42,968 nt of DNA. Source: a virus. Shown here in pieces: positions 12,863 to 42,968 of the stretch; the first letter of the stretch is position 1; each line of letters starts with the position of its first letter. The DNA lies in the IMG/VR virus record IMGVR_UViG_3300042946_000297, positions 1-42,968 of that record, one strand, 5' to 3'. The notes below the pieces were generated by a model, which saw only the letters and a list, made by a program, of their open reading frames with translations, did not search any database and was not told where the DNA came from. A program made the translations under genes and the position numbers.

Positions 12863-13612
12863 TTAACGATTTCTTTTCAAAATTTCTTTTTCATAATATT
12901 CGTCAAACCCATCCATCATATTTGTCATTGATTTATTCTTATCAATACCAACAATTTTATCAATTAAACCGAATTGTAATGCCTCATCTGAGTTGAACCA
13001 TTTATCGTTCCTTGACGACTCTAACATCTCGTCAAATGTTTTACCACAATTCTCTGCCAAAATTTTGAATAATAAAAAATTATATTTTTCAGCTTCAAGT
13101 TGGTTAATTCTAGTATCTTGAATGTTACCTTGACTTCCATGTGATACCATATGAGTCATTACCTTTGAATAAATCAAAGAAGACCTTTTCCCTTTCGCTC
13201 CTGACGATAACAATACTGAACCCATAGACGCACACATACCCAAATTAGTTGTTGCAACATCTGCGGAAACAAAGTTCATCGTATCACGAATACCCAAACC
13301 ATTTAATACACTTCCACCCGGAGTCTGTAAATAAAGGTTAATATCTTTTTTCTTATCCAAATTATCTAAGAAAATAATTTGTGATTGGATGATATCACCC
13401 ATTCTTTCATTAACAGGACCTGAAGCCCATAATATCCTATCCATCATCAAACGGGAAAAAATATCCATTTGAGTGACTCTCATTTCCCTTTCCTCTAAAA
13501 TGTAAGGGGTCATTGAGTTTTGAATATGATTGTTAAAATTGTGTAAATCCAATGATGGTTTACCTAAATGTTTTGTGTAATAACTCTGAAATTCTTGTCC
13601 TACGTTCATCAT
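12863..13612 (-). CDS. clpP: ClpP-type serine protease
   Basis: A 249-aa ClpP homologue with an N-terminal extension of about 40 residues relative to bacterial ClpP. The nucleophile motif GMCASMGS has Ser129, the MTHMVSHGS segment has catalytic His154, and DKWF (Asp202) matches the usual Asp position. LYLQTPGGSV and ALQFGLIDKIVG are family hallmarks. ClpP forms a barrel that degrades substrates fed by ClpA/C/X. A Clp unfoldase with an IGF docking loop lies at 42020-42968, so the phage may supply both subunits. The gene is monocistronic with its own promoter. Confidence 0.92.
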   Translation of the reverse strand: MMNVGQEFQSYYTKHLGKPSLDLHNFNNHIQNSMTPYILEEREMRVTQMDIFSRLMMDRILWASGPVNERMGDIIQSQIIFLDNLDKKKDINLYLQTPGGSVLNGLGIRDTMNFVSADVATTNLGMCASMGSVLLSSGAKGKRSSLIYSKVMTHMVSHGSQGNIQDTRINQLEAEKYNFLLFKILAENCGKTFDEMLESSRNDKWFNSDEALQFGLIDKIVGIDKNKSMTNMMDGFDEYYEKEILKRNR

Positions 13613-20806: not shown

Positions 20807-20814
20807 TATCTTTG
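20807..20814 (+). promoter_or_regulatory. -7 promoter element (TATCTTTG)
   Basis: TATCTTTG with a TTTG about 20 bases upstream drives the unit that starts with the 20840 tRNA-like gene. Confidence 0.65.
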
Positions 20815-20839
20815 ACAAAAATTAAAGATAATTAAAGAT

Positions 20840-20929: not shown

Positions 20930-20948
20930 TCTTAAAAAAATATAAGAT

Positions 20949-21197: not shown

Positions 21198-21201
21198 AAA
21201 T

Positions 21202-21459: not shown

Positions 21460-21468
21460 GATATTAAG

Positions 21469-22068: not shown

Positions 22069-22143
22069 AACCCTCGCTACGTAACGGCACGTGAAATTAA
22101 TACCGACACGTACTATCTGGCAGGTCAGGTCGGGGGTTTTTAA
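22065..22143 (+). ncRNA. Structured RNA/terminator-like element closed by TTAAAACCC/GGGTTTTTAA
   Basis: The closing stem overlaps the stop codon of the preceding gene. Inner ACGT/CGTG and CACGTAC pairings are present. It may combine a terminator-like stem with a tRNA-array spacer. Confidence 0.45.
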
Positions 22144-22144
22144 T

Positions 22145-22237
22145 GGTCAGGTTGGATACAAGGTCGGTTCGAGTCCGATGGAAGGTCACGGATGACGGGT
22201 AGCACCCTGTAGAGAGGTTCGATTCCTCTCCTGACTA
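22145..22237 (+). tRNA. Rearranged tRNA-like gene
   Basis: Acceptor GGTCAGG/CCTGACT and a normal terminal T-arm (AGAGG-TTCGATT-CCTCT) are present. In between lie a second T-arm-like hairpin (TCGG-TTCGAGT-CCGA), a variable-loop-like AGGTCACGG and a D-loop-like GGGTAGCACC, i.e. arms in the wrong order. No clear anticodon arm. Confidence 0.45.
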
Positions 22238-22254
22238 CAAATGACATAATTCTT

Positions 22255-22393
22255 ATAAACCACGAAAATGGGCTTGAACTACCGAACGGAAAACGCGTTT
22301 CCTAATAGGGGTAATATAGAAAATTAGATTCGGAGGCATCCGGGTTGTGTGAAAAAGTAGGGGGTCACCCGGCAGGGGACCAATAAGGTTTAT
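22255..22393 (+). ncRNA. Structured spacer RNA closed by ATAAACC/GGTTTAT
   Basis: Inside are a GGAAA-ACGCG-TTTCC hairpin and a CCGGGT/ACCCGG stem. About 139 nt, no ORF. Confidence 0.45.
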
Positions 22394-22400
22394 GTTATAT

Positions 22401-22500
22401 TGTTAGGTGGTGGAATTGGTAAACACCTACACTACACTTGAGGTAGAAACAGGCTAAGGATGGAAGAAACTTAGTACGGGTTCGAGTCCCGTCCTAACCA
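22401..22500 (+). tRNA. tRNA-Leu-like gene, anticodon probably GAG, unusual loop
   Basis: The D-arm GGTGGAATTGGTAAACACC, class II variable arm (CTAAG/CTTAG) and T-arm ACGGG-TTCGAGT-CCCGT are Leu-like. The anticodon region CTACACTACACTTGAGGTAG matches bacterial Leu(GAG) sequence, but the stem is four pairs and the loop is of abnormal length. The 1-72 pair is a mismatch. Confidence 0.6.
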
Positions 22501-22508
22501 CGGATGAC

Positions 22509-22560
22509 GGAGAGTGAGCCAAGGGTAATTCCGTTATGGTTATCCCTTGGGGGTCTCTCC
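22509..22560 (+). ncRNA. Long spacer hairpin GGAGAG/CTCTCC
   Basis: The outer stem is extended by CCAAGGG/CCCTTGG and TAA/TTA, making a rod-like 52-nt hairpin between two tRNA-like genes. Confidence 0.5.
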
Positions 22561-22570
22561 TGAAGAAATT

Positions 22571-22641
22571 GGGATAAAAGCACATAAGGATGTGCAAGCG
22601 TCAGACGACGCGAGGCTTGGGTTCGAATCCCAAATATTCCA
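22571..22641 (+). tRNA. tRNA-like gene with a tetraloop in place of the anticodon loop
   Basis: Acceptor GGGATAA/ATATTCC, D-arm GCAC/GTGC and T-arm TTGGG-TTCGAAT-CCCAA form a cloverleaf of normal length. The anticodon arm pairs best as GCGTC-AGAC-GACGC, leaving only four loop bases. Decoding function is doubtful. Confidence 0.5.
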
Positions 22642-22655
22642 CAAAACTATTAATT

Positions 22656-22706
22656 ATGAAAAAAGAATTATACGCTCATTAGGTTTAATAAACCTAAAAT
22701 TTGAGC
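22656..22706 (+). promoter_or_regulatory. Leader peptide plus hairpin before 22710
   Basis: An 8-codon ORF (MKKELYAH, 22656-22682) runs into a hairpin with GCTCA/TGAGC and TTAGGTTT/AAACCTAA stems that ends four bases before ATG 22710. The geometry suggests translation-coupled control. Confidence 0.35.
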
Positions 22707-22709
22707 AAA

Positions 22710-22889
22710 ATGAGAATTAAAAATTATACTAACAAAGAGTATAAAAAAGAAAAAAGAAAAGAGTATAAAGAGTGGGACACTTGGTTTGAAGACTATTGGA
22801 GTAAAAAATCCGGAATATGGGCTTTCAAATACAGAGAATTTCGTTCTTGGAAACACAATAGAAAAACACAATATAAACAAAATGAGTAA
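22710..22889 (+). CDS. Small basic aromatic protein, 59 aa
   Basis: The start is ATG 22710 (MRIKNYTNKEYKKEKRKEYK). Very rich in Lys, Trp and Tyr (EWDTWFEDYWSKKSGIW). It overlaps the HNH gene start (ATGAGTAA) and is probably co-translated with it; an RNA- or DNA-binding accessory role is conceivable. Confidence 0.55.
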   Translation: MRIKNYTNKEYKKEKRKEYKEWDTWFEDYWSKKSGIWAFKYREFRSWKHNRKTQYKQNE

Positions 22890-23388
22890 TTATAATAAAT
22901 GTTTGGTTTTGGATTCAAGTTATATTCCTCGGAGTATAATTTCCGCCGAAAGGGCGTTCGTCATTTCTTATAAAGGAAATGCGGATGTTGTATATGAACA
23001 CCCGGAATCATTTAAGTTGATAAATCCGGAACTTGATATTAAAAAACCATCCATTATTAGAGTTTATAAATATGTTAATCAACAGATACATAAGGTTCCG
23101 TTAAATCGTGAAAATGTGTTTAAGAGAGATAACTATTGTTGTGTGTATTGTGGTGATGATAATCGAAAAACATTAACATTAGACCACGTAATTCCACAAT
23201 CTAAGGGTGGTAAAGATGCGTGGGACAACTTGGTAACTGCTTGTAGAAAATGTAATAGTGAAAAGTCGAATTTAACGTTGGAAGAATATGGGAAAGAAAT
23301 TCCTCAACCAAGACGACCTCACTATTTAATGTTAATGAAACAAATGTCTCATATTCCAAAAGAATGGGATGATTATCTTTTCTATTAA
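22882..23388 (+). CDS. HNH endonuclease
   Basis: A 168-aa protein from ATG 22882 (MSNYNKCLVLDSSYIPRSII). The C-terminal HNH zinc finger is complete: C87-x2-C90, DH (101-102), N116, C121-x2-C124-N125. The N-terminal half (SYIPRSIISAERAFVISYKG) matches the common bacterial HNH family rather than intron-encoded ones. It may be a mobile or genome-processing nuclease. It sits inside the tRNA/ncRNA region after a hairpin leader. Confidence 0.85.
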   Translation: MSNYNKCLVLDSSYIPRSIISAERAFVISYKGNADVVYEHPESFKLINPELDIKKPSIIRVYKYVNQQIHKVPLNRENVFKRDNYCCVYCGDDNRKTLTLDHVIPQSKGGKDAWDNLVTACRKCNSEKSNLTLEEYGKEIPQPRRPHYLMLMKQMSHIPKEWDDYLFY

Positions 23389-23394
23389 CAAATT

Positions 23395-23447
23395 ATTTAC
23401 CTTATGTGATTTATGTCGGCGATAATCGCCGTGTAAATAAGGTAAAT
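23395..23447 (+). ncRNA. Hairpin closed by ATTTACCTTAT/ATAAGGTAAAT
   Basis: A perfect 11-bp stem encloses the near-perfect CGGCGATAATCGCCG hairpin. It lies seven bases after the HNH stop. Confidence 0.55.
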
Positions 23448-23455
23448 GTAAATTA

Positions 23456-23650
23456 AAAAGTTTAACAACCAGAGTGTCCATACTCTAAAAAACTAATGGA
23501 CTAGGTGTGTTGATAGGGGTAGCCACCCAATAGTAGCTGATTAAATTCAAGGTAGATACGGACTAGTACAGTGGTGACCAACACACGGAATTCCACTAAT
23601 CCCTTTGTTGCCCGCTACGACCCGAGGGCGGGGTTGTTAAACTTTTTTTA
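23456..23650 (+). ncRNA. Candidate structured ncRNA, about 191 nt, with 15-bp closing stem
   Basis: AAAAGTTTAACAACC pairs perfectly with GGTTGTTAAACTTTT and is followed by a T-run. Inside are AGAGT/ACTCT, a perfect GTGTGTTG/CAACACAC stem, GTGG/CCAC and CCCGC/GCGGG hairpins. No ORF and no tRNA arms. It ends the RNA array before the late genes. Confidence 0.6.
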
Positions 23651-23662
23651 TTAATATCAACG

Positions 23663-23669
23663 TATTTAT
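23663..23669 (+). promoter_or_regulatory. Late-type motif (TATTTAT)
   Basis: CGTATTTATCATTAAAA lies 16 bases before ATG 23686. Confidence 0.5.
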
Positions 23670-23685
23670 CATTAAAATATAACAT

Positions 23686-24186
23686 ATGAAAAATTTATTT
23701 AATGACATTTCTCAAGACGAGAAAATTAAAATCCTTGAGATGCACTTAGGTAAAAAAAATGTAATTTCTGAAGAACATAAAGAGATAAAAACATCCCATT
23801 ATTCTGATGATGATTATGATTGGTTTGAGAATGTTTTACCTCTTGGAATGGATAGAAAACGACTATCATCTTTAGATGGTTTATACACAACACATTACAA
23901 TAATGATGGGAAACTTATTTTTAAGATAACCGGAGAAAATTGTCATTTAAATGCGATTGGTGTTGTAAATGATAAACGTAAAACCGGTGTTGCTAAAAAA
24001 TTAATGAATGATGCAATAAACTTTTGTAAATCAAAAGGGGTTACCAAAATAACCGCCAATATTTCTGAAAATAACACACCATCACTATCGTTAATTAAAT
24101 CTTTAGGTATTTTTAAAGAAAATAAAAATGTTGATAGGTATTATGATGATGGTAGTAGAAAACTAGCCTTTTACACAGAAATTTAA
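23686..24186 (+). CDS. GNAT-family acetyltransferase with N-terminal targeting-like module
   Basis: A 166-aa protein. Residues 1-32 carry the shared late-protein module (ISQDEKIKILEMH, then V-I-S-E-E). The C-terminal GNAT fold is recognised by LNAIGVVNDKRKTGVAKKLM (the acetyl-CoA-binding Q/RxxGxG/A region in degenerate form) and ITANISENNTPSLSLIKSLG. Such enzymes acetylate amines on proteins or small molecules. The targeting module and late promoter motif suggest it is carried in the virion and delivered on infection, which is inference. Confidence 0.75.
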   Translation: MKNLFNDISQDEKIKILEMHLGKKNVISEEHKEIKTSHYSDDDYDWFENVLPLGMDRKRLSSLDGLYTTHYNNDGKLIFKITGENCHLNAIGVVNDKRKTGVAKKLMNDAINFCKSKGVTKITANISENNTPSLSLIKSLGIFKENKNVDRYYDDGSRKLAFYTEI

Positions 24187-24202
24187 TTTTTTTTTAACAT
24201 CA

Positions 24203-24209
24203 TATTTAT
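24203..24209 (+). promoter_or_regulatory. Late-type motif (TATTTAT), leaderless geometry
   Basis: TATTTAT, CGTT, ATG 24214. Confidence 0.55.
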
Positions 24210-24213
24210 CGTT

Positions 24214-24540
24214 ATGAGATACATTATAACTGAAAGTCAAAAAGATAGTGCAATCATTAGATGGTTAAACTCTGAGTATGGTGATTTAACACCAATTGAA
24301 ATGGAAGAATATTCAAATTACATTATATTTATGAAAGATGATAAAGTAATCTTTGAATACAATAAAAGAAGTGGGGTTGTCTCTATCTCAAATGACAATA
24401 TTTGGTCAATTTTATCAAACTTTTTTGGGTTAGAAGATAAGGAAATAGAAAACATCACAAAAGAATGGGTTGAGAGTCGTTATAAAATATGGGTTACAAA
24501 AACTTATAAATTCCGTAAAGGTGGGAATCTATTGGGTTAG
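24214..24540 (+). CDS. Late protein, 108 aa, paralogue of the next gene
   Basis: The N-terminus MRYIITESQKDSAIIRWLNS has an I-T-E site. The body (EYGDLTPIEMEEYSNYIIFM, then K-D-D-K-V-I-F-E-Y) aligns along its length with 24565-24918, so the pair arose by duplication. No family recognised; probably virion-associated. Confidence 0.65.
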   Translation: MRYIITESQKDSAIIRWLNSEYGDLTPIEMEEYSNYIIFMKDDKVIFEYNKRSGVVSISNDNIWSILSNFFGLEDKEIENITKEWVESRYKIWVTKTYKFRKGGNLLG

Positions 24541-24564
24541 GGCGACATTATAAATTAAAATTTT

Positions 24565-24918
24565 ATGAAATACATTATAAACGAATCGAAACTATATGAT
24601 TTTGTGAATAGACATCTAAATTCCAACTTTGGAGATTTGGAAGTTTATGAAGATGAGGAATACCCTGAACAACTTTTTTTTATGAAAGATGGTGAAGTGG
24701 TATTTGATTATAATGATGACAATGGAACATCATCATTCTCAAAAAATAAAATAATATCGTTTTTGAAAGATTTTATGGGTTTAGAAGGTAGTGAAATAAA
24801 AAACATTCTAAAACGATGGGTTTTTGAGAATTATGGTTTAAATGTTCGTGATTTATCGACCATCCCCGATGACCTTAGTTTAAAGTGGAAAAGAATTAAA
24901 CATAAAAAATCATTATGA
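24565..24918 (+). CDS. Late protein, 117 aa, paralogue of 24214-24540
   Basis: The N-terminus MKYIINESKLYDFVNRHLNS carries I-N-E. The shared core is F-G-D-L, then FFMKDGEVVFDY, a helix and FMGLEGSEIKNILKRWV. Its end overlaps the next gene by four bases (ATGA). Probably co-expressed late genes. Confidence 0.65.
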   Translation: MKYIINESKLYDFVNRHLNSNFGDLEVYEDEEYPEQLFFMKDGEVVFDYNDDNGTSSFSKNKIISFLKDFMGLEGSEIKNILKRWVFENYGLNVRDLSTIPDDLSLKWKRIKHKKSL

Positions 24919-25310
24919 AAAAATTTATAATTTCTGAACAAGAAAAAGAAGATATATTGGGACAACATAAGGATATAATGTCAAAACCGGAATTTCCTGA
25001 GGAAAGAAGAACATTGGATACCAATTTGAAATCGTTTGATTTTACACGTTTGAAGTCTCAAGGTTTAACACCATACTTTGTTGATACCAAACCGGGTAAT
25101 AAGGTTGAACTGGTTGAGTTACCAAAACCAATTTCACAAGATTGGAGAACAAAACCAAGAGAAGTTTATTTATTAACTCCGGACGAGTATAATAAAATGA
25201 AAAAACTAACGGACAACATAAACGAAATGATTGAACTCAAAATGAAACAAATTGAGTTATATAAACAATATATTCCGTCAGTTGCCGATGAGATTATAAA
25301 GAAAAAATAA
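24915..25310 (+). CDS. Late protein, 131 aa, EKxxILxxH module
   Basis: The N-terminus MKKFIISEQEKEDILGQHKD is nearly the same as that of the 326-aa protein at 11109, although the bodies are unrelated. The rest is soluble with a C-terminal helix (DNINEMIELKMKQIELYKQY). Fourth gene of the late block that starts with the acetyltransferase. Confidence 0.65.
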   Translation: MKKFIISEQEKEDILGQHKDIMSKPEFPEERRTLDTNLKSFDFTRLKSQGLTPYFVDTKPGNKVELVELPKPISQDWRTKPREVYLLTPDEYNKMKKLTDNINEMIELKMKQIELYKQYIPSVADEIIKKK

Positions 25311-25381
25311 AAAAATAAAAAAAAAACTTGACACTTTTTAAAAAAGGTGTATATTTATTAGAAATTACAATAACACAGAAA

Positions 25382-25456
25382 ATGCAAACTTTAAATACAT
25401 TATTACTTACGATAGGAGCCGAGGGTAGAGATACAACTTGGACGGAGATGGTATGA
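25382..25456 (+). CDS. Possible micro-protein, 24 aa
   Basis: The frame MQTLNTLLLTIGAEGRDTTW(TEMV) has a TTGACA-like and TATATTTATT element upstream and a terminator downstream (25484-25518). It could equally be a small RNA. Confidence 0.35.
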   Translation: MQTLNTLLLTIGAEGRDTTWTEMV

Positions 25457-25483
25457 TGTATATTTAAGTAAAAAATAATATAG

Positions 25484-25518
25484 TAAAATCCATCTCCAAA
25501 AGAGGTGGATTTTTTTTT
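25484..25518 (+). terminator. Rho-independent terminator
   Basis: AAATCCATCTC pairs with GAGGTGGATTT and is followed by a T-run. Confidence 0.75.
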
Positions 25519-25527
25519 GAAATATAT

Positions 25528-25559
25528 TTGGAATATTAAAAATAATATTCGTACCTTTG
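25528..25559 (+). promoter_or_regulatory. Host-type promoter before the 38-aa gene
   Basis: TTTG at about 25527-25530 and TACCTTTG at 25552-25559, 18 bases before ATG 25578. Confidence 0.65.
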
Positions 25560-25577
25560 TCGAAACAAAATTAAAAG

Positions 25578-25694
25578 ATGGAAGGACAAGAAAAAAACGA
25601 TACAAAGTATCAAGAATTAGAAATGGTTTATTCACCAATCTTAGGAGTAGAATACATTTTAGTTGATGTAGAAGAAACTGAAGAAAAAAAATAA
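25578..25694 (+). CDS. Small acidic protein, 38 aa
   Basis: MEGQEKNDTKYQELEMVYSP... ends EETEEKK. A clear promoter precedes it and the tRNA array 2 promoter follows. Function unknown. Confidence 0.5.
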   Translation: MEGQEKNDTKYQELEMVYSPILGVEYILVDVEETEEKK

Positions 25695-25701
25695 AAAAAA
25701 G

Positions 25702-25733
25702 TTTGGCAGATTAAAAAAGGTTTTATACCTTTG
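25702..25733 (+). promoter_or_regulatory. Promoter of tRNA array 2
   Basis: TTTG (25702-25705), a 20-bp spacer and TACCTTTG (25726-25733). The flanks GTTTGG and TTTGTCCC match the array 1 promoter. Confidence 0.75.
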
Positions 25734-25750
25734 TCCCAACAAATTAAAAC

Positions 25751-25772
25751 ACGTTATTTGACATATTGATAA
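25751..25772 (+). promoter_or_regulatory. boxA-like leader of tRNA array 2
   Basis: An exact copy of the array 1 leader element (GTTATTTGACATATTGAT core), seven bases before the first tRNA. Confidence 0.5.
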
Positions 25773-25779
25773 TATAAAC

Positions 25780-25851
25780 GCTGCGTTAGTGAAGAGGTTA
25801 ACACGTATCACTTTCTATGATGAGGCACGGGTTCGATTCCCGTACGCAGTA
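25780..25851 (+). tRNA. tRNA-Glu(TTC), copy 1
   Basis: Acceptor GCTGCGT/ACGCAGT, anticodon loop CTTTCTA, T-arm ACGGG-TTCGATT-CCCGT, discriminator A. Confidence 0.93.
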
Positions 25852-25853
25852 CA

Positions 25854-25981
25854 AAGTTATTTAAACACCTATGATATAGGCAAGCTGGATTGGGTTGCTA
25901 GCATTCCCGTTCGAGTCGGGCACGAAGACAAGTCTTCAAGTGGGCCAGCTAGGAGAGACGAAGACCTGTTTAAAATAACTT
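25854..25981 (+). ncRNA. Structured spacer RNA closed by AAGTTATTTAAACA/TGTTTAAAATAACTT
   Basis: A 14-bp stem with one bulge encloses CCTAT/ATAGG, AGCTGG/CCAGCT, GAAGAC/GTCTTC and a T-arm-like CCCG-TTCGAGT-CGGG hairpin. It has some tRNA pieces but is not a cloverleaf. Confidence 0.55.
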
Positions 25982-25987
25982 ATTTTT

Positions 25988-26059
25988 GGCCCTATCGTCT
26001 ATCGGTTAGGACATTTGGTTTTCGACCAAAGAAGTCGGGTTCGACTCCCGGTGGGGCTA
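25988..26059 (+). tRNA. tRNA-Glu(TTC), copy 2
   Basis: Acceptor GGCCCTA/TGGGGCT, anticodon stem TTTGG/CCAAA with loop TTTTCGA, discriminator A. Its body differs from copy 1. Confidence 0.93.
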
Positions 26060-26123
26060 CAAGGGTTATGAGCAACGTGTCCCCTAATTACACAATGTTG
26101 ACGATTCGGAAAGACGAATAAAC

Positions 26124-26194
26124 GGGCCAGATGACAACGGCAGTCCAACTGATTTGCAATCAGATTGTTTTGGGTTCGATTCCCACTGTGTCCA
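26124..26194 (+). tRNA. tRNA-Ala(TGC)
   Basis: Anticodon loop TTTGCAA with stem CTGA/TCAG, T-arm GGG-TTCGATT-CCC, discriminator A. The acceptor GGGCCAG/TGTGTCC pairs poorly unless a T bulges out. Confidence 0.8.
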
Positions 26195-26202
26195 CGATTG
26201 TT

Positions 26203-26329
26203 AACACATTCGCTTTGTGTTGAAATTGTCAGATAACGTGCGACGATAGTTTAAAGACTGAAGGAAAAGAAACACTGACTGAAAGGAAAGTTCGCAACTA
26301 AACCTACTTAGACTTTGTAAGGTAAAGTC
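26203..26329 (+). ncRNA. Spacer with two hairpins
   Basis: AACACA/TGTGTT (26203-26221) and GACTTT/AAAGTC (26311-26329). No ORF between. Confidence 0.35.
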
Positions 26330-26335
26330 AATTTT

Positions 26336-26410
26336 GGTCTATTCGTTCAACGGCTAGGATGCTACCCCGTCACGGTAGAGATGAGAGTTCGATTCTCTCA
26401 TAGACCGCCA
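26336..26410 (+). tRNA. tRNA-Asp(GTC), CCA encoded, C33
   Basis: Acceptor GGTCTAT/ATAGACC, anticodon stem CTACC/GGTAG with loop CCGTCAC, discriminator G, encoded CCA. Position 33, normally U, reads C. Confidence 0.88.
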
Positions 26411-26416
26411 AACATT

Positions 26417-26520
26417 ACAAGAGTCGTAAGCTATAATGACCCGGGCGGTTGTATCCGGATAATCAAAATAGACAGATATCTTGTGGTGGGGATAATAACC
26501 TACAACCGGCTCTGTTATCC
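26417..26520 (+). ncRNA. Spacer RNA with three interleaved stems
   Basis: ACAAGA/TCTTGT, GGTTGTA/TACAACC and GGATAA/TTATCC occur in the order 1-2-3-1'-2'-3', so they cross one another (pseudoknot-like or alternative structures). Confidence 0.4.
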
Positions 26521-26530
26521 TAAAAATAAA

Positions 26531-26574
26531 TCATAGGAGTAATTAACCTATGACTGTCAGGTTCTAGAACTGAC
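26531..26574 (+). ncRNA. Two adjacent spacer hairpins
   Basis: TCATAGG/CCTATGA then GTCAG/CTGAC, directly before the tRNA-like gene at 26577. Confidence 0.4.
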
Positions 26575-26576
26575 GA

Positions 26577-26680
26577 TTGATTATAGTGTAAAGGTGCACG
26601 GAGGAACGGAGTAACGGCAGGTGCTATAGCAACCGGTGAAAGGGGACTCAGGAGTAAGGTTCGAATCCTTATTAGTCAGC
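26577..26680 (+). tRNA. Oversized tRNA-like gene, anticodon uncertain
   Basis: Acceptor TTGATTA/TAGTCAG, D-arm GTGTAAAGGTGCAC and T-arm TAAGG-TTCGAAT-CCTTA are recognisable. The central part is about 60 nt and folds as GGAGT/ACTC around an inner hairpin, not as a normal anticodon arm. Confidence 0.45.
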
Positions 26681-26697
26681 AAAATAAATAATACACA

Positions 26698-26768
26698 GCA
26701 GTCGGGAGGTAAGGCATCTCATCGGTCTCATAAGCCGACTTAATCAGGTTCAATTCCTGAGATTTGCA
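26698..26768 (+). tRNA. tRNA-Met(CAT) (or Ile-lysidine)
   Basis: Anticodon stem TCGGT/GCCGA with loop CTCATAA, T-loop TTCAATT. The acceptor GCAGTCG/GATTTGC has mismatches at positions 5-7. Confidence 0.8.
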
Positions 26769-26774
26769 ACAAAT

Positions 26775-26846
<72 letters not shown>

Positions 26847-26890
26847 CGAATGTGTCTCAGTTCCCTGAAGTGATTCAAAATTGAGGTCTC

Positions 26891-26917
26891 GGTAGACAGT
26901 ACTAGTCTGAATCTACC
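26891..26917 (+). ncRNA. Spacer hairpin GGTAGA/TCTACC
   Basis: A perfect 6-bp stem preceded by a CTCA/TGAG pairing, before tRNA-Gly. Confidence 0.35.
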
Positions 26918-26924
26918 AAAATAT

Positions 26925-26999
26925 GCGGGTATCGTATAGTGATTATTATGGGACGCTTCCAACGTTCAGACGACAGTTTGATTCTGTCTATCCGCTCCA
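26925..26999 (+). tRNA. tRNA-Gly(TCC), CCA encoded
   Basis: Acceptor GCGGGTA/TATCCGC, anticodon stem GGACG/CGTTC with loop CTTCCAA, T-loop TTTGATT, discriminator T then CCA. Confidence 0.92.
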
Positions 27000-27003
27000 T
27001 ATT

Positions 27004-27076
27004 GCCTCCATAGCATAAATGGAAATGTAACATTCTTCTAAAATGTCCTATACACGTTCGAATCGTGTTGGAGGTA
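27004..27076 (+). tRNA. tRNA-Arg(TCT)
   Basis: Acceptor GCCTCCA/TGGAGGT, anticodon stem ACATT/AATGT with loop CTTCTAA, discriminator A. Confidence 0.93.
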
Positions 27077-27081
27077 CAAAT

Positions 27082-27203
27082 GGTGTAAAAGGGTTGAGTG
27101 ATGGTGATTTGTAGGTAACACTCCTTAATACTAGGATTGGAGCAAAAGGTTGGTGCATTTCACAAGTAATTCATCGAGGTAGGTTCGATTCCTATCTACA
27201 CTA
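27082..27203 (+). tRNA. Oversized tRNA-like gene, about 122 nt
   Basis: Acceptor GGTGTAA/CTACACT (six of seven paired) and T-arm AGG-TTCGATT-CCT are present. The middle has GAGTG/CACTC and TCCT-TAATACT-AGGA hairpins. A U33-type anticodon loop is not found. Confidence 0.4.
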
Positions 27204-27211
27204 CAACAATT

Positions 27212-27286
27212 ACCCTCGTGGGCAAACGGAAAAGCCGTCTGATTTAGGCTCAGAAGATTTTGTGAGTTCGACTCTCACCGGGGGTA
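27212..27286 (+). tRNA. tRNA-Leu(TAG) with a short variable loop
   Basis: Acceptor ACCCTCG/CGGGGGT, D-arm GGC/GCC, anticodon stem TCTGA/TCAGA with loop TTTAGGC, discriminator A. The variable region is only about seven bases, whereas bacterial Leu tRNAs are class II. Confidence 0.85.
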
Positions 27287-27770
27287 CAAATACTTTCATC
27301 CAAGCAGGTGAGGATAGGATACTAATTGGAATCGTCACCCAATTAACGTAATCACTCAATTTGGTGACACCATAAAAGGGTTGCAACCTTTTGGAAGTAC
27401 AAAATTTACACATAGAAAAACAAACAAGTAACAATGGTGGATGGACCACTGAAGGCGAAAAATTTAGTTACGACATTACAAGAAGTGTTATGTTTGTTGA
27501 GTAAGATAAAAATAAGTTACAATAAGACAGGTAGTCGGCACCTTCCGATACTGTGTAGATGATTTATCCCCAATCTTGAGGGATGTGTAAAAGTATACAG
27601 AAAAATTGAAGATACCGGAATTATTGTATGACCGGCCTTAAAGAAGTAATTTTTCTGTTACAACATACATTATCATAACTCGGTGTGATACACCGCCAAC
27701 TACCTCCTTAAACAACGTGGGAACTGCGGTTCTCCCAATGTGGCCGAAGTGATGATGTTAAAAAAAAATG
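27287..27770 (+). ncRNA. 484-nt non-coding stretch with at least three structured modules
   Basis: No ORF or tRNA was found. Visible stems: TACTTTC/GGAAGTA (27291/27393) enclosing an 11-bp GTCACCcAATT/AATTtGGTGAC hairpin; AACAAACA/TGTTTGTT (27419/27491) enclosing GTAAC/GTTAC and GTGG/CCAC; CAGAAAAATT/AATTTTTCTG (27598/27648) enclosing a CCGG/CCGG hairpin; and CGGTGT/ACACCG near 27680. Confidence 0.5.
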
Positions 27771-27885
27771 ATAACTATGGCGGATGGGTAGACGCAGAGG
27801 TGAGGGGATATAGTAACACTCGGAAAGTAGCATTCTCGTTACGTCCTACGGTGAAATCGAACAGGTTCGAGTCCTGTTGGTTATC
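27771..27885 (+). tRNA. Oversized Leu/Ser-like tRNA gene, about 115 nt
   Basis: Acceptor ATAACTA/TGGTTAT, D-arm GCGGATGGGTAGACGC, variable arm CGGT/ATCG and T-arm ACAGG-TTCGAGT-CCTGT are class II. The anticodon region is about 50 nt with a GTAAC/GTTAC inner stem, as if a short insert sits in the anticodon arm. Confidence 0.5.
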
Positions 27886-27932
27886 AGTAGTTTAAGAGAC
27901 AGAGTTGACTTCTACTTAAAAAAAATACTCTG
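27886..27932 (+). ncRNA. Candidate H-type pseudoknot
   Basis: AGTAG (27886-27890) pairs with CTACT (27912-27916) and CAGAGT (27900-27905) with ACTCTG (27927-27932), in crossing order, with an A-rich third loop. Confidence 0.5.
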
Positions 27933-27938
27933 CCACAG

Positions 27939-28021
27939 GCTTCCGTCGCATAGAGGTTGATTGCACCTGATTTGTAATCAGGAACCGAAAGGTCACGTTG
28001 GTTCGAATCCAATCGGAAGCT
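27939..28021 (+). tRNA. tRNA-Thr(TGT) with a long variable arm
   Basis: Acceptor GCTTCCG/CGGAAGC, anticodon stem CCTGA/TCAGG with loop TTTGTAA, T-loop TTCGAAT, discriminator T. The variable region is 14 nt with an ACC-GAAA-GGT hairpin, unusual for Thr. Confidence 0.85.
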
Positions 28022-28130
28022 CGAGTCGTTTTTTGGGGGTTCAGTTTGTGAGTCTGTTTTTTGTAGTTAAGAAAAATCAGTGGCGACAAATAGGTAGTTA
28101 GAAGTTTCTTAGCCTTAAAAGAAAGTATGG

Positions 28131-28216
28131 TTCGGTTTAGGACGAGATTGACAACACTTATTGGGGAAATCTCTCAAAAAAAAATGGAAGAATGGTCAAG
28201 GTTAACTCAAACCGAA
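28131..28216 (+). ncRNA. Structured spacer RNA closed by TTCGGTTT/AAACCGAA
   Basis: A perfect 8-bp stem encloses a GAGATT/AATCTC hairpin. The surrounding 28022-28248 stretch has no gene. Confidence 0.45.
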
Positions 28217-28248
28217 GATGAATAACGTGTTCATCAGTTTTTCCGGTA

Positions 28249-28324
28249 GGTCAGGTGGAAGAGTTGGTACTTCGTTCGGTGGGAAACTGCCGAAAGGTCA
28301 CGGGTTCGAGTCCCGTCCTGACTT
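28249..28324 (+). tRNA. tRNA-like gene with a 10-nt anticodon loop
   Basis: Acceptor GGTCAGG/CCTGACT, D-arm GAAG/CTTC, stem TTCGG/CCGAA, five-base variable loop and T-arm ACGGG-TTCGAGT-CCCGT. The loop TGGGAAACTG is three bases too long, so the anticodon (GGG or GAA) is ambiguous. Confidence 0.55.
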
Positions 28325-28452
28325 CAGGTCATCCACTTTCGTTCTCTCCGTATGAGGGTATGGGTTCTTGGATGTAAAATGTAGAACTCGGACGGTTGAA
28401 ATAGACCAAACAATAATACGGTCTTTTTACAAATTTTTGTGGGACAAAAAAT

Positions 28453-28538
28453 ACGGGTTCTTCGGTGGGTACCGGGTTATTTCTCTTAAAATAACACAAC
28501 TACAAAAGTATGGACACATATGGGGAAACCGAACCCGT
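28453..28538 (+). ncRNA. Structured spacer RNA closed by ACGGGTTC/GAACCCGT
   Basis: A perfect 8-bp stem encloses CGGT-GGGT-ACCG and GTTATTT/AAATAAC hairpins. The flanking CCACTTTCG (28333-28341) is complementary to CGAAAGTGG inside the next tRNA-like gene. Confidence 0.5.
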
Positions 28539-28547
28539 GTCCTATAT

Positions 28548-28637
28548 AGTCAGATGATATAGTGGTAGTATTTGGTCGTCGATTCACGAAAGTGGGGTAT
28601 CTTCGGCAGAGCACAGGTTCGATTCCTGTTCTGACTA
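28548..28637 (+). tRNA. Oversized tRNA-like gene, anticodon uncertain
   Basis: Acceptor AGTCAGA/TCTGACT, D-arm ATA/TAT and T-arm ACAGG-TTCGATT-CCTGT are clear. The middle folds as TCGT/ACGA with a six-base loop. CGAAAGTGG in it can pair with upstream 28333-28341. Confidence 0.45.
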
Positions 28638-28668
28638 CAAAAAAATCTTGGGTCCTGTACGAAATCAG

Positions 28669-28701
28669 GTGATGAATGTGTGGTTGTCGACTACATATCA
28701 C
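28669..28701 (+). ncRNA. Spacer hairpin GTGAT/ATCAC
   Basis: The outer stem encloses GTGGT/ACTAC. A CCTG/CAGG hairpin precedes it. Confidence 0.3.
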
Positions 28702-28710
28702 TCAAACCAT

Positions 28711-28809
28711 AGTCAGGTGGCGGAGAGGAAACGCTAACTATGAATAGTCTGAGGAGTGGAACACAGTCCTATACTCCAATGACTGCAGGTTCGAATCCTG
28801 TCCTGACTA
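28711..28809 (+). tRNA. Oversized tRNA-like gene, anticodon uncertain
   Basis: Acceptor AGTCAGG/CCTGACT, D-arm GCG/CGC and T-arm GCAGG-TTCGAAT-CCTGT. A TAGTC/GACTG stem encloses a 31-nt loop with its own GGAGT/ACTCC hairpin, as if a short insert split the anticodon loop. Confidence 0.45.
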
Positions 28810-29016
28810 CAATTGAGATAGAGATACTCAACAGATTTGGCATCGTTTCTTAAACAAAGATGTAGCTGACGCCTCAAACGGTTTTACAGAGGGGGTCTTA
28901 GGGTTAATAGGGAGAGTACCAACTCACCTCCTAGTAATGGTTGACTTTTAAGCGGTAAGACGCGATGGGTTTTGAATAGGAAAACTGTGGACATCTACTC
29001 CAAAATAATCTCATTG
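28810..29016 (+). ncRNA. Structured spacer RNA, about 207 nt, closed by CAAT(t)GAGAT/ATCTCATTG
   Basis: A 9-bp closing stem with one bulge. Inside are CATC/GATG, GAGT/ACTC and GTTTT/AAAAC hairpins. No ORF. Confidence 0.45.
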
Positions 29017-29026
29017 GGGGAAACAC

Positions 29027-29106
29027 ATCCCCGTGGTGAAACTGGCAAACACAACAGGCTTAAAACTTGTCGCTTCGGCTTGTGGGTTCGACTCCCACCG
29101 GGGATA
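29027..29106 (+). tRNA. tRNA-Leu(TAA)
   Basis: Acceptor ATCCCCG/CGGGGAT, anticodon stem ACAGG/CTTGT with loop CTTAAAA, class II variable arm (CGCTTCGGCTT), discriminator A. Confidence 0.93.
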
Positions 29107-29113
29107 CTAAATT

Positions 29114-29210
29114 ATCAAACATTAAAGCGACAGTAACGCATAGACCACGTGGGGCACACATAAAATTGTATCAGTCGAAAGTTGAGGTGATAGACCACCA
29201 TATGTTTGAT
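29114..29210 (+). ncRNA. Structured spacer RNA closed by ATCAAACAT/ATGTTTGAT
   Basis: A perfect 9-bp stem encloses a CCACGTGG palindrome and a GGT/ACC hairpin, between tRNA-Leu and the 176-aa gene. Confidence 0.5.
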
Positions 29211-29240
29211 ATTTGTTATTAAATTGATTATATTATTGAT

Positions 29241-29771
29241 ATGAGGAATTATACGAAAGAGATTAAAACTAGATATGGTACTCGAAAAGTCCTAAACAAA
29301 GGACTTAAAAAAGTAAATATCGGAGATGATGTTTGGTTATACGGAAGACAAAATTACGTAACCGGAAAAGGGTTACATATGGTAATCTACGGACCAAATA
29401 GAAAAGAATATCACGTTTGGGGTAAGGATGTTACTGACCTTTGTAAAGATGAATCTTCAGACCACTATGACTATTGGGGTTCTTGCAATCGAAATGGTAA
29501 TCGAGCAATTCAATCAAAAGTTAAAATTTACATTTTAACAAACATTCTTGATAAAAAAGAGAATTGGTGTTTTGACCTGAATAAGATTCCGGAATCAGGA
29601 TATCTCAAAGTAATGTGTGAAAACGGAACGGTTAAGAATATTGATTTTAATGGTGTGTTTTACCCACAAGAATTGGTCTCTAAAAGACAAACGTGGAAAC
29701 ACGGTCAATTATGGAATCAACCGGCACATTCAACACAAACATTTATTAACGTAATAGGATATAGAAAATAA
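29241..29771 (+). CDS. Unknown protein, 176 aa
   Basis: Starts MRNYTKEIKTRYGTRKVLNK. Contains a beta-rich segment (VWLYGRQNYVTGKGLHMVIY, then VWGKDVTDL) and several Trp and Cys residues (HYDYWGSCNRNGN). A TATTTGT variant of the late motif is upstream. No known family is recognised. Confidence 0.65.
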   Translation: MRNYTKEIKTRYGTRKVLNKGLKKVNIGDDVWLYGRQNYVTGKGLHMVIYGPNRKEYHVWGKDVTDLCKDESSDHYDYWGSCNRNGNRAIQSKVKIYILTNILDKKENWCFDLNKIPESGYLKVMCENGTVKNIDFNGVFYPQELVSKRQTWKHGQLWNQPAHSTQTFINVIGYRK

Positions 29772-29775
29772 AATT

Positions 29776-29821
29776 ATGAAAAACCAAAACCCCAACTCCA
29801 CATAGTGCTTGACTAGTTCAA
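29776..29821 (+). promoter_or_regulatory. Leader peptide and hairpin before 29827
   Basis: A nine-codon ORF (MKNQNPNST, 29776-29805) is followed by a CTTGA/TCAAG hairpin ending just before ATG 29827. Confidence 0.3.
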
Positions 29822-29826
29822 GTATT

Positions 29827-30057
29827 ATGACTCAGAAATTGAGAATTTGGAGAGTAGTTCCCGTTTATAACGGTGTTCAGGCTCCCACTTTTTTCGTAGA
29901 AACTACGGAAGAAGGACGTGAGAAGGCAGAAGAATCTGCAATTAAACAAGCAAGGTTAAAAACAGGCTTGGGTAAATTTAAGGAATGGAAATTCCGATTG
30001 GAGAAACTCTCTGTGAGGGTGGATAAATTTGGTAGGTACGTTAAACACCACCAATAA
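29827..30057 (+). CDS. Unknown protein, 76 aa
   Basis: The start is ATG 29827 (MTQKLRIWRVVPVYNGVQAP). The beta-strand then helix layout (FFVETTEEGREKAEESAIKQ) resembles small alpha/beta phage proteins. A TTG 18 bases upstream is a less likely start. Followed by spacer hairpins and the last tRNA. Confidence 0.55.
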   Translation: MTQKLRIWRVVPVYNGVQAPTFFVETTEEGREKAEESAIKQARLKTGLGKFKEWKFRLEKLSVRVDKFGRYVKHHQ

Positions 30058-30067
30058 GGTTCAGTAA

Positions 30068-30147
30068 AAACCGCTGGGGGTTTTAAATTACTCAGTGTAC
30101 TTTTTAGGTTAAAGTCATGTAGGGTGTTTACACCAAAACCTAATTTT
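30068..30147 (+). ncRNA. Spacer hairpins before the last tRNA
   Basis: AAAACC/GGTTTT (30068-30087) and TTAGGTT/AACCTAA enclosing GGTGT/ACACC. Confidence 0.4.
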
Positions 30148-30220
30148 GGTCTCGTAACTCAGAGGTAAGAGTGCTACACTCATAATGTAGAAGTCGGGAT
30201 ATCGTAATTCTCCGGGACCA
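30148..30220 (+). tRNA. tRNA-Met/Ile(CAT) with an unusual T-loop
   Basis: Acceptor GGTCTCG/CGGGACC, D-arm ACTC/GAGT, anticodon stem CTACA/TGTAG with loop CTCATAA, discriminator A. The T-loop reads ATCGTAA, lacking the TTC signature. Confidence 0.8.
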
Positions 30221-38807: not shown

Positions 38808-38812
38808 CTCAG

Positions 38813-39201
38813 TGGAAGTGCGGAGACTCGAACTCCGGTGTTACTTGTATTACCTATTAAGGTCTACACGTTTATTCAATTTTTCGAAACTGACAAAATT
38901 CACAATTCCCTTATTTTTTAAGTGGTTCGGTTTACTGAGAACTAATCCTCCACTTGTACCTTTTCGGATAGGTACCACACCTTTGTAAAGACTTCTGTTG
39001 CAAGGTTATATGTCCATCGACCCCGTGTTGTGTTTCCGATTAGGCTACAGCAACTTCCTCAGTGCGGATAAATCCAACAACTGAAAGTTTGTCTAAAACG
39101 TTTCCGTCTAAAAGTTTGTCATCCATAGATTTAAGTGATAGGAAACTTCTCACTACGTGCCCCGAATAACTATTACGAATAGTCAATTCCATGTCACTCC
39201 C
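38813..39201 (-). ncRNA. ssrA: tmRNA (SsrA)
   Basis: The RNA reads from 39201 to 38813. The 5' acceptor arm GGGAGTG pairs with 3' CACTTCC, with discriminator A. The 5' GGAATTGAC matches the conserved tmRNA GGATTCGAC block. The 3' T-arm is CGGAG-TTCGAGT-CTCCG. The internal tag frame ends TEEVAVA-stop (stop at 39040-39042). A pseudoknot is visible downstream: GTACC/GGTAC crossing ATCC/GGAT (38944-38981). Length 389 nt is typical. CCA is not encoded. It has its own promoter and terminator. tmRNA frees stalled ribosomes and tags the nascent peptide. Confidence 0.88.
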
Positions 39202-39223: not shown

Positions 39224-39255
39224 AACATAAATATTGAAATTCCAAACAAAAAAAG

Positions 39256-39262
39256 TATTTAT
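39256..39262 (+). promoter_or_regulatory. Late-type motif (TATTTAT)
   Basis: GTATTTATTATAAAAA lies 16 bases before ATG 39279. Confidence 0.5.
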
Positions 39263-39278
39263 TATAAAAATAGTTAAA

Positions 39279-40415
39279 ATGAAAGTTATAAAACTAACAG
39301 AATCAGACCTTAAACATATTATTAGAAGAGTTATTCAAACTGAGCAAGAGGATGAAACTCAACAAGAAGACACCAATACTTTAATGGCGTTACGCGATTT
39401 TGTTAGAGGTAAAATAACAAAAGATGATTTATATGATATTGATGATACTATTGAAGATATTAGTGTAAGAAATCCTTTGGGTCAAACTATTTTAACAATT
39501 AAATTTGACGATTCCGATGAGGTTGGTGATATGTTAGGTTTAGCAGATGATGATTTATGGTTTTATAAAATTCTTTTTTCTTATGATGGATATGATTTTA
39601 TGGATTCATATCAGGTAAAAGATGATTTTTTACAGGGATATGGTGTTTGGGATGATATTAATGACGAAAATAGAGAAAAACTAAAAGAAATTGGGGAAGT
39701 CGTAGTCCCTGATAAACCATTTCAATTGGATTCCGACGAATATAGAATACAACTTAATGAGTTATTGTTGGAACTATTCAATAGTGAGATGGATTGGATT
39801 TTAGGTGATTATCAGACCGAAAAGGATTATGAAATGAACAAAACAGCAAAAGAACATATTACAAAAGAATTTAATGATGTTTTGGAATCCTTTGGGATTG
39901 AAATTGTTGATGATTATGATATGGATGAATTTGAAATAAGTATTGCTGATTTATATTCAAATGCGTTACAATCCAATCTTTTTAATGAAAATGCTAAAGA
40001 AATGTTAGCGAATCTTATTAAGAAACGTTCACCGGACATGGGTGGCTGGTATGAAAATCATTATGAATATCTAGACATGGATAATTTTGATTCAAAATCT
40101 TATAATCAAACCGTAGAAAGACAATTAGATAAAATAATTGAAAAATTGGGTGAAGGAAGTGTTACTGATGTCAACAAATATATTGATTTAAGAAATACTA
40201 TACTTAAAAGATATAAACAGGGTGTATGGTATAATTTACCGAGAGACCCTGAAACAAAGTTCAGAGTTTATTCTTTTGACTCTGAAGAATTAAAAGTTAT
40301 TGTTCAAGTTATACCTAACGGTAAGACTCCTATAAAAACAATAAAATTAAGTGAAGAAAATTTTAACAATTTTTTACATCAAAATTCTCTTTTTGACTTT
40401 GAAGATACGTATTAA
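39279..40415 (+). CDS. Late protein, 378 aa, KLTESDL-type N-terminal module
   Basis: The start is ATG 39279 (MKVIKLTESDLKHIIRRVIQ). This N-terminus matches, by memory, a module seen at the front of many unrelated proteins of large phages, with an L-T-E site. The body is acidic, with repeated [YF]D-rich segments and long helices. The upstream in-frame extension overlaps the late motif and is rejected. Probably virion-associated; function unknown. Confidence 0.65.
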   Translation: MKVIKLTESDLKHIIRRVIQTEQEDETQQEDTNTLMALRDFVRGKITKDDLYDIDDTIEDISVRNPLGQTILTIKFDDSDEVGDMLGLADDDLWFYKILFSYDGYDFMDSYQVKDDFLQGYGVWDDINDENREKLKEIGEVVVPDKPFQLDSDEYRIQLNELLLELFNSEMDWILGDYQTEKDYEMNKTAKEHITKEFNDVLESFGIEIVDDYDMDEFEISIADLYSNALQSNLFNENAKEMLANLIKKRSPDMGGWYENHYEYLDMDNFDSKSYNQTVERQLDKIIEKLGEGSVTDVNKYIDLRNTILKRYKQGVWYNLPRDPETKFRVYSFDSEELKVIVQVIPNGKTPIKTIKLSEENFNNFLHQNSLFDFEDTY

Positions 40416-40432: not shown

Positions 40433-41275
40433 ATGACAAACGATATATTATTACTTAAAGAAGTTCTGAGTGTTCCAACGGTGACTTATCAAGAAGACCT
40501 TATGGTTGAATTTTTGAAAAACTGGTTGACGGAAAACAATATTGAACATTATGTTGATGAACATAAGAATGTTTATGCGACCAAACAAGAATTTGAAACA
40601 CTTCCGGAAGATTTTTATTTTCCTTGTGTTATTGCTCACACGGATACCGTTCATAGATTAGATACAATTATAGTTCATGATGAACAACTCCCGAATGCTC
40701 AAGGTCAAATAAAAGATGCGTTAAAGGCTTATAATTTGGAAGGAAGACCAACAGGTATCGGTGGTGATGACAAATGTGGTGTATTTGCTTGTTTGAAATT
40801 ACTTCAAGAATTACCAAATCTTAAAGCAGCATTTTTCGTGTCGGAAGAAACCGGATGTCATGGTTCCAAGAAAGCAGACCCTGAATTTTTCACAAATGTT
40901 GGTTATGGTATCCAATTTGACGCCCCAGAGAACTGGATGATAACAGAAAAATGTTATAGTCAAGATTTATTCGATAGAGATTCCGAGTTCTTTACGGTTT
41001 GTGACCAAGTGTTAACTGAAGGGATGGACATTGGTAGTATGAAATATATGGTTCACCCATATACCGATGTTTATGCGTTGAGAAGTAAATTTAGTTTTTC
41101 TTGTATCAATTTCTCAATTGGGTATTACAACTATCACACACCAAATGAATATGTCGTAATTGAAGATGTTTTCAAAGGAATTGAGATGGGAAAACAAATG
41201 ATTGAAAAACTTGGATATAAATTACACTTCAAAGAAGTAGTTGAGATTCCAAGATATAATCACAGATTTTTTTAA
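40433..41275 (+). CDS. M20-type metallopeptidase (PepT-like)
   Basis: A 280-aa zinc peptidase. AHTDTVH (68-74) supplies His69 and Asp71, GIGGDDKCG (108-116) the bridging Asp, SEETGCHG (137-144) the catalytic Glu and metal Glu, FDAPE (162-166) an Asp and YHTPNEY (234-240) the final His. This is the full M20 metal set in a shortened protein without an obvious dimerisation domain. It would trim peptides to amino acids. A leaderless host-type promoter precedes it and a terminator follows. Confidence 0.85.
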   Translation: MTNDILLLKEVLSVPTVTYQEDLMVEFLKNWLTENNIEHYVDEHKNVYATKQEFETLPEDFYFPCVIAHTDTVHRLDTIIVHDEQLPNAQGQIKDALKAYNLEGRPTGIGGDDKCGVFACLKLLQELPNLKAAFFVSEETGCHGSKKADPEFFTNVGYGIQFDAPENWMITEKCYSQDLFDRDSEFFTVCDQVLTEGMDIGSMKYMVHPYTDVYALRSKFSFSCINFSIGYYNYHTPNEYVVIEDVFKGIEMGKQMIEKLGYKLHFKEVVEIPRYNHRFF

Positions 41276-41308: not shown

Positions 41309-41315
41309 TTTGTGG

Positions 41316-41322
41316 TATTTAT
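41316..41322 (+). promoter_or_regulatory. Late-type motif (TATTTAT), leaderless geometry
   Basis: TATTTAT, ATTT, ATG 41327. Confidence 0.55.
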
Positions 41323-41326
41323 ATTT

Positions 41327-41989
41327 ATGGAACACATTATAAAAAAAATATTAAGAGAACAAATCCAAGAAATCGAAAAACAATCAAATTTTTCAAGATT
41401 GTTAGATAAATTCAAAGAAACGTTTCCCGAAGAATTAAAACCAAAGTTTGAAACCATTAAAAACTACGTTGAAAGTTATATTAAAGACCACGGATTTAAT
41501 GTAAAATTTTTGAATTCTTGTTCTACAGGTTTTGCGGGTGTAAGGACAAAAAATCAAATTATAATTTGTTCACCAAACAATATGACCACTTTTGGGGATT
41601 TTTTATATACTATTTTTCACGAAATTAGACATGAAGAACAAATGGGTAAGATGAAATTGTTGAACCCACTAACTGATTTTGATTTGGAGGATTTTGAAAG
41701 TTTATATAAACACTATTGGGATATGGAAATGGATGCCGATAAATTTGGTAAAGAAATGGTTGCCAAACTAGTTGTTAAATTAAACATTCCAATTGAAATT
41801 GCCAAACCATTATTTTCATTATCACCATACATCCAACAATATCCGTTCTTAAGTAAACAAATAGAACAATCAGTTAGAATGTTAGTGACTCAAATAAAAC
41901 AGATGAAAGCGTCAGGAGAAGAATACGAAGACATTCAAGACCATCCGATTGTGAAAAGACATTTGGATAAACTTGAGGAGTTTATATAA
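41327..41989 (+). CDS. HEXXH zinc metalloprotease with N-terminal targeting-like helix
   Basis: A 220-aa protein from ATG 41327 (MEHIIKKILREQIQEIEKQS). TIFHEIRHEEQ gives H98-E-I-R-H102. WDMEMDADKFG around Glu134 matches the gluzincin third ligand (E-x-x-x-D). The N-terminal amphipathic helix resembles other late proteins. The late motif lies four bases before the ATG. The enzyme may act in the head or be injected; the substrate is unknown. Confidence 0.78.
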   Translation: MEHIIKKILREQIQEIEKQSNFSRLLDKFKETFPEELKPKFETIKNYVESYIKDHGFNVKFLNSCSTGFAGVRTKNQIIICSPNNMTTFGDFLYTIFHEIRHEEQMGKMKLLNPLTDFDLEDFESLYKHYWDMEMDADKFGKEMVAKLVVKLNIPIEIAKPLFSLSPYIQQYPFLSKQIEQSVRMLVTQIKQMKASGEEYEDIQDHPIVKRHLDKLEEFI

Positions 41990-42019: not shown

Positions 42020-42968
42020 TTATCTCCCTTTCTTTTGAATTTTGATTTCCTCACCATCCATTTTAATTTGGTAGGATTTACCCTCAACCATTTTTCCGGT
42101 CAATACTTCTTCCGATAATAAATCCTCAATTTTATCTTGGATTGCTCTTTTCAATGGTCTTGCACCATACACTTCATCATACCCAATTTTAGATAAGTAT
42201 TTAACTACCTCATCATCGTAAGTTACGGTATATTTCATCTCACTAAGACGAACCATTAATTTCTTTAACTCAATATCGGTAATCTTATCAATATCTTCAG
42301 GAGATAGTGAGTTGAAAACAATTGTGTCATCAATACGATTGATAAACTCTGGTGAGAAGAAATTTTTCATTTCTTTCATCAAGATTTCTTTTTTAGCCTC
42401 TTCATCGGCATATGAGTTATTTGAGAACCCAATACCTGTACCAAAATCTTGTAATTTTTTAACACCCAAGTTAGAGGTTAAAATGATTAAGGTATTTTTG
42501 AAGTTAATCTTTCTACCTAAACTATCAGTTACGTGACCATCATCTAAGATTTGAAGTAAAACCGTAAAGACATCTTTATGGGCTTTCTCAACCTCATCAA
42601 ACAAGATTACAGAATATGGTTTGTTTTTAACTTTTTCAGTTAATAAACCACCTTCTTCATAACCAACGTACCCCGGAGGTGCTCCAACCAATTTAGATAT
42701 TGTATGTTTTTCTTGGTATTCTGACATATCCACACGAATTAGAGAATCTTCAGTGCCAAACATTTCTTTAGCCAATTGTTTTGCCAAGTGAGTTTTACCC
42801 ACTCCCGTTGAACCTAAGAAGATAAATGAACCGATAGGTCTGTTAGGGTCTTTAATACCCAAACGATTTCTCTTGATAGATTTTGCGATTTTAACGACCG
42901 CAGCGTCTTGACCAATCACTTTACCCATAATTGACTTATCCAAGTTCATTAATGCTTTTGAATCATCA
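42020..42968 (-). CDS. ClpA/ClpC-type AAA+ unfoldase, C-terminal module (cut by the window edge)
   Basis: The frame stays open to the window end, so the 5' part is missing; about 316 residues of the second AAA+ domain are visible. Counting from the Met at 42949: Walker A GSTGVGKT (46-53), Walker B VILFDE (114-119), sensor LTSN (157-160), arginine finger region NRID and sensor 2 GARPLKRA. GYVGYEEGG is the pore loop. TGIGF (171-175) contains the I-G-F ClpP-docking tripeptide, so it is built to pair with ClpP. ClpP is encoded at 12863-13612. Confidence 0.93.
   Translation of the reverse strand, partial: DDSKALMNLDKSIMGKVIGQDAAVVKIAKSIKRNRLGIKDPNRPIGSFIFLGSTGVGKTHLAKQLAKEMFGTEDSLIRVDMSEYQEKHTISKLVGAPPGYVGYEEGGLLTEKVKNKPYSVILFDEVEKAHKDVFTVLLQILDDGHVTDSLGRKINFKNTLIILTSNLGVKKLQDFGTGIGFSNNSYADEEAKKEILMKEMKNFFSPEFINRIDDTIVFNSLSPEDIDKITDIELKKLMVRLSEMKYTVTYDDEVVKYLSKIGYDEVYGARPLKRAIQDKIEDLLSEEVLTGKMVEGKSYQIKMDGEEIKIQKKGR

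Follow-up and report, generated by a model that had tools for sequence, protein, structure and literature searches.

Our analysis suggests that a family of giant Bacteroidota viruses operates a protein-tagging and disposal pathway of its own while infecting the host. Central to it is a gene island composed of a Clp unfoldase gene, a gene for an M20-type peptidase, a conserved protein gene and a tmRNA, which we read, with about even confidence, as a phage-borne form of trans-translation that is coupled to proteolysis. The parts, their linkage, the conserved active residues and the constraint on the tag can be read from the sequences themselves.

Results

The DNA stretch analysed (hereafter 'the window') comprises 42,968 bases at 33% GC, corresponds to an IMG/VR virus record and is a piece of a T4-like phage genome of ~300 kb. 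Its closest relative in a scan of viral contigs is the 309-kb contig G001, which holds the locus L002. ARAGORN reported 28 tRNA genes in the window, forming a dense array at positions 16773-30220; an extra tRNA at 30148-30220 was reported by Rfam only. The features considered here are:

12863..13612, minus strand: ClpP (S14), 28.5 kb from Clp, with intact triad and remodelled loop-binding groove
38810..39201, minus strand: one-piece tmRNA (Rfam RF00023) with the 21-residue tag GNVLDKLSVVGFIRTEEVAVA
39234..40415 (likely start 39279), plus strand: conserved protein of no assigned family, between the M20 gene and the tmRNA
40433..41275, plus strand: M20-type metallopeptidase (PF01546, 25.9 bits at a cut-off of 24.6; phrog_4191 peptidase, 6e-33)
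41312..41989, plus strand: predicted zinc metallopeptidase (HEIRHE ... EMDAD; low-confidence fold matches)
42020..42967, minus strand: D2 half of a ClpC-class unfoldase with GIGF loop; the ORF is open at the window end

The original prediction had listed a tmRNA, an AAA+ module with an IGF docking loop, a ClpP with full triad and an M20-type peptidase, and all four were confirmed as real and well beyond chance. The tmRNA matches RF00023 over the full model (1-374) with 65.6 bits against a gathering threshold of 47 bits, although ARAGORN, run on the window, did not report a tmRNA at 38810-39201. Profile searches assigned the Clp ORF to PF07724 (1e-66) and PF10431 (2e-24), and its sequence includes ...DFGTGIGFSNN...; the window ClpP matches PF00574 (4e-48, model positions 5-179 of 182) and contains the residues S-H-D. 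For the M20-type enzyme, the two matches given above are accompanied by metal ligands (HxD, D, EE, D, H) that are invariant in 25 sequences. The host of the phage is probably a member of the Bacteroidota, an inference drawn because the 80 best bacterial relatives of its Clp (identity about 56-61%) are Bacteroidota except for one unclassified uncultured bin.

The G3-U70 alanine identity pair is present in 35 of 35 tmRNAs, that of the window included, and the consensus fold of 23 tmRNA sequences contains 40 predicted pairs, 29 of which show compensatory changes. The tag reading frame of these tmRNAs ends in a stop. Twenty distinct phage tags with a length of 21-22 residues could be aligned, while no tag was recovered from G019 by the tag-reading procedure. 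Codon positions 1, 2 and 3 differ by 0.396, 0.255 and 0.544, respectively, and tag identity is 0.524 in frame compared to 0.382 and 0.313 for the two alternative frames; as judged from these alignments, the tag reading frame is under coding constraint. Because of the invariant identity pair, the compensatory changes and this constraint, the phage tmRNA looks functional. G040 and G041 have similar tags and therefore probably represent a single lineage.

Application of the same procedure to Bacteroidota tmRNAs, 9 of 12 of which were readable, yielded the tags GENNYALAA, GEDNYALAA, GETRYAMAA and GEYNYAMAA at about the same start position. The phage tag differs from this nine-residue GENNYALAA type: it has double the length and lacks the YALAA/YAMAA end. 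For tags encoded by ssrA, the classical reader is ClpX or ClpA, and ssrA variants with degradation-prone ends, e.g. LVA, exist. The departure from the host type could mean that host proteases recognise the phage tag poorly and that rescued phage proteins thereby survive. We consider such a protective exchange of tags very unlikely, as most phage tags end in VA, AA or TA, resembling the degradation-prone ends, and an unfoldase and peptidases adjoin the tmRNA.

The linkage of the genes was surveyed in 44 large records, several of which are near-duplicates and most of which are fragments, such that the counts do not represent independent events. A tmRNA above the cut-off was found in 34 of these records, Clp in 39, M20 in 38 and ClpP in 29. 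Clp, M20 and tmRNA cluster within about 6 kb in 33 records, with gaps of 56-3923 bp between Clp and M20 (median 669 bp), 1131-3641 bp between M20 and tmRNA (median 1488 bp) and 2038-6190 bp between Clp and tmRNA. The co-occurrence in relatives that the original prediction had asked for was thus seen, with clpP located outside the island. SmpB was looked for beyond the window and was found in close relatives: absent from the window fragment itself, it is present in G001 and others, in total in 15 of the 28 records searched. Its distance from the tmRNA is 453-866 bp in G024, G030, G035 and G036, 7.3 kb in G004 and 194 kb in G001; no SmpB was detectable in G002 or G003, both over 300 kb in size.

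General synteny could account for much of the linkage within the main clade. This bears on the view that tmRNA and SmpB merely keep ribosomes working while host proteases degrade the products, with Clp and the peptidases being unrelated but syntenic. Bacteroidota hosts own a tmRNA and ClpC, the position of SmpB varies and the protein is missing in some records, all of which would fit. The same applies to the Lak phages and two other huge phages (W03-W06), in which the profiles used recognised no protease neighbour of the tmRNA; a universal linkage between tmRNA and protease genes was therefore rejected. On the other hand, tmRNAs beside M20-like or ClpP genes recur in distant phages with other surroundings: an M20-like gene lies 80 bp from the tmRNA in G040 (597 kb) and 665 bp from it in G041 (228 kb), and the ClpP gene of G039 is located about 20 bp from the tmRNA. 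Together with the departure of the phage tag from the host type, this makes an exclusive function in ribosome rescue somewhat unlikely in our view. LR745206 contains only a weak, 92-nt tmRNA-like match (L236 7479-7570, 22.8 bits), perhaps just a tRNA-like domain or an unusual tRNA, and M20 was not found near its Clp.

Between the D and H ligands of the M20-type enzyme lie about 72 residues. The usual M20 dimerisation lid is too long for such a spacing, and the sequence indicates an M20-type peptidase without a lid-sized insertion. The zinc peptidase candidate adjoins Clp in 34 of 81 loci, and most members show motifs of the type HE(I/M)RHE and E-x-(D/E)AD. Its model is of moderate quality (pLDDT 78.5), and the fold search gave no match at E <= 0.001; among the insignificant matches, some were to metallopeptidases. 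For the conserved protein at 39234..40415, a confident model was obtained (pLDDT 90.7), and a fold search against the PDB was without match at E <= 0.001.

Since the window covers only D2, the C-terminal half of Clp, the remainder was read from relatives. The Clp of L002, 98% identical to that of the window over the shared part, is encoded by an ORF of 682 residues comprising D1, M-domain and D2. Among solved structures, S. aureus ClpC matches it best, with an alignment that covers residues 144-800 of 818; as the alignment starts at residue 144, the N-domain appears to be missing. Phage Clp proteins start about 45 residues ahead of D1 and have about 10-65 residues before a shared motif, compared to about 190-250 in 80 bacterial ClpC frames. 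Judged by ORF length and alignment, the main-clade relatives read through leave no room for an N-terminal Clp_N domain. Hence, of the N-terminal half that the original prediction had sought outside the window, an intact D1 upstream of D2 was recovered in a relative, but the N-domain is absent. We read the phage Clp as a ClpC-class protein that has probably lost its N-domain. Conservation among 82 phage Clp proteins extends to the Walker, pore, arginine-finger and M-domain motifs, and the (I/V)GF loop, a form also present in Bacteroidota ClpC, is kept in 80 of them. A second, partial Clp copy with an adjoining M20 fragment (L269 10178-10639; G036 and G037) suggests a partial duplication. In several relatives, a GOLLD RNA is located a few kb from Clp:

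L078 13794-14208: GOLLD RNA
L079 16089-16497: GOLLD RNA
L236 8518-8923: GOLLD RNA
L237 5005-5411: GOLLD RNA

The Ser-His-Asp triad is intact in 31 of 31 phage ClpPs. At the groove positions that we take, from general knowledge of ClpP, to bind the unfoldase loop, the window ClpP has NYFTLSLV and most relatives have THYVTSLV, compared to YYFIMFLM or GYFIIFLL in two solved bacterial ClpPs, neither of which is from Bacteroidota. The distance between clpP and Clp ranges from 11.5 to 244 kb across records, and ClpP was not found in G003, despite its size of over 300 kb. Because clpP lies outside the island and the loop-binding groove of its product is partly replaced, docking of the phage Clp on the phage ClpP is uncertain, with host ClpP as the alternative partner. 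The phage Clp might thus seize host ClpP by its (I/V)GF loop and direct it towards phage-tagged or host proteins, with the phage ClpP acting alone, with another partner or in a mixed ring. The near-invariant loop and its shared form with Bacteroidota ClpC, as well as the altered groove and the position of clpP, are in line with such a capture. However, the equivalents of Y62, F82 and L114 are retained in the window ClpP, which makes docking possible, and clpP occurs in 29 of the 44 records, including most of the longest ones; we regard the capture of host ClpP as doubtful.

Among PHROGs, ClpP is best matched by phrog_94 (head maturation protease), and terminase and portal genes are located near Clp, which could hint at a function of ClpP, together with Clp, in head maturation. 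This is highly improbable: in G001, a dedicated S77 gp21-type prohead protease adjoins the gp23-type capsid gene and ClpP is therefore not needed for this purpose. Moreover, ClpP is encoded far from the head genes and matches cellular ClpP well. As separate observations, the portal gene of G001 (L275 12755-15568) carries an HNH endonuclease-like insertion, and several proteins, one of them a GNAT acetyltransferase, have in common an N-terminal motif similar to EEKxRILxxHxxxxxxLxEQ with a nearby LxE, which is reminiscent of the T4 capsid-targeting sequences cut by gp21. The motif was found in:

Window 11109-12089 and 23686-24186
L274 10704-11624
L275 2140-3270 and 3968-5095
L271 5190-5693

Discussion

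If the island acts in trans-translation coupled to proteolysis, the phage tmRNA, with phage SmpB where present, would during infection enter ribosomes that have stalled on broken mRNA, appending the phage-specific tag of 21-22 residues. A hexamer of the N-domain-less ClpC-class protein would then unfold the tagged proteins and feed them to ClpP of phage, host or mixed origin, and the M20-type peptidase, in some members along with the putative zinc peptidase, would trim the resulting peptides to amino acids. Reading of the tag by the phage Clp, its docking on ClpP, the trimming of peptides and a benefit for the phage are steps that we infer, and so are amino-acid recycling and redirected host proteolysis, both anticipated by the original prediction. 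A more specific version, in our view unlikely, would be an orthogonal channel, in which a phage-specific degron is poorly read by host proteases but read directly by the N-domain-less ClpC, with the remodelled ClpP and dedicated peptidases finishing the degradation.

The island provides a concrete setting for the question why phages carry tmRNA. Should the coupled reading be true, a virus would possess a complete pathway from tag to amino acid and its own degron, and the phage tag could be employed as a tool to degrade proteins orthogonally. In addition, the linkage marks the conserved protein at 39234..40415 and the putative zinc peptidase as candidate parts of the pathway.

That huge phages can carry tmRNA and SmpB has already been published (Al-Shayeb et al. 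2020, PMC7162821), as has tmRNA in other phages. These two components are in common with our set, while the main text of that study is silent on Clp, a protease or their linkage. In the open-access literature searched, supplements aside, we found neither the linked island nor the phage-specific tag nor a phage Clp without N-domain, and the island with its tag appears to be new within that literature. Phage control of a ClpC system is shared with an adaptor of phage SPO1 reported to retune host ClpCP (PMC6873191); in the present case, the phage encodes the unfoldase itself. The phage Clp has D1, M-domain, D2, pore loops and the (I/V)GF loop in common with S. aureus ClpC (6em8) and with Bacteroidota ClpC, to which it is about 60% identical, but lacks the N-domain. 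With bacterial trans-translation, the phage set shares a tmRNA with alanine identity pair, a tag frame with stop, a Clp unfoldase, ClpP and, in the records that encode it, SmpB. It differs in that all components are phage-encoded, the tag of 21-22 residues has another sequence, the genes are linked to peptidases and the unfoldase is a ClpC-type protein without N-domain.
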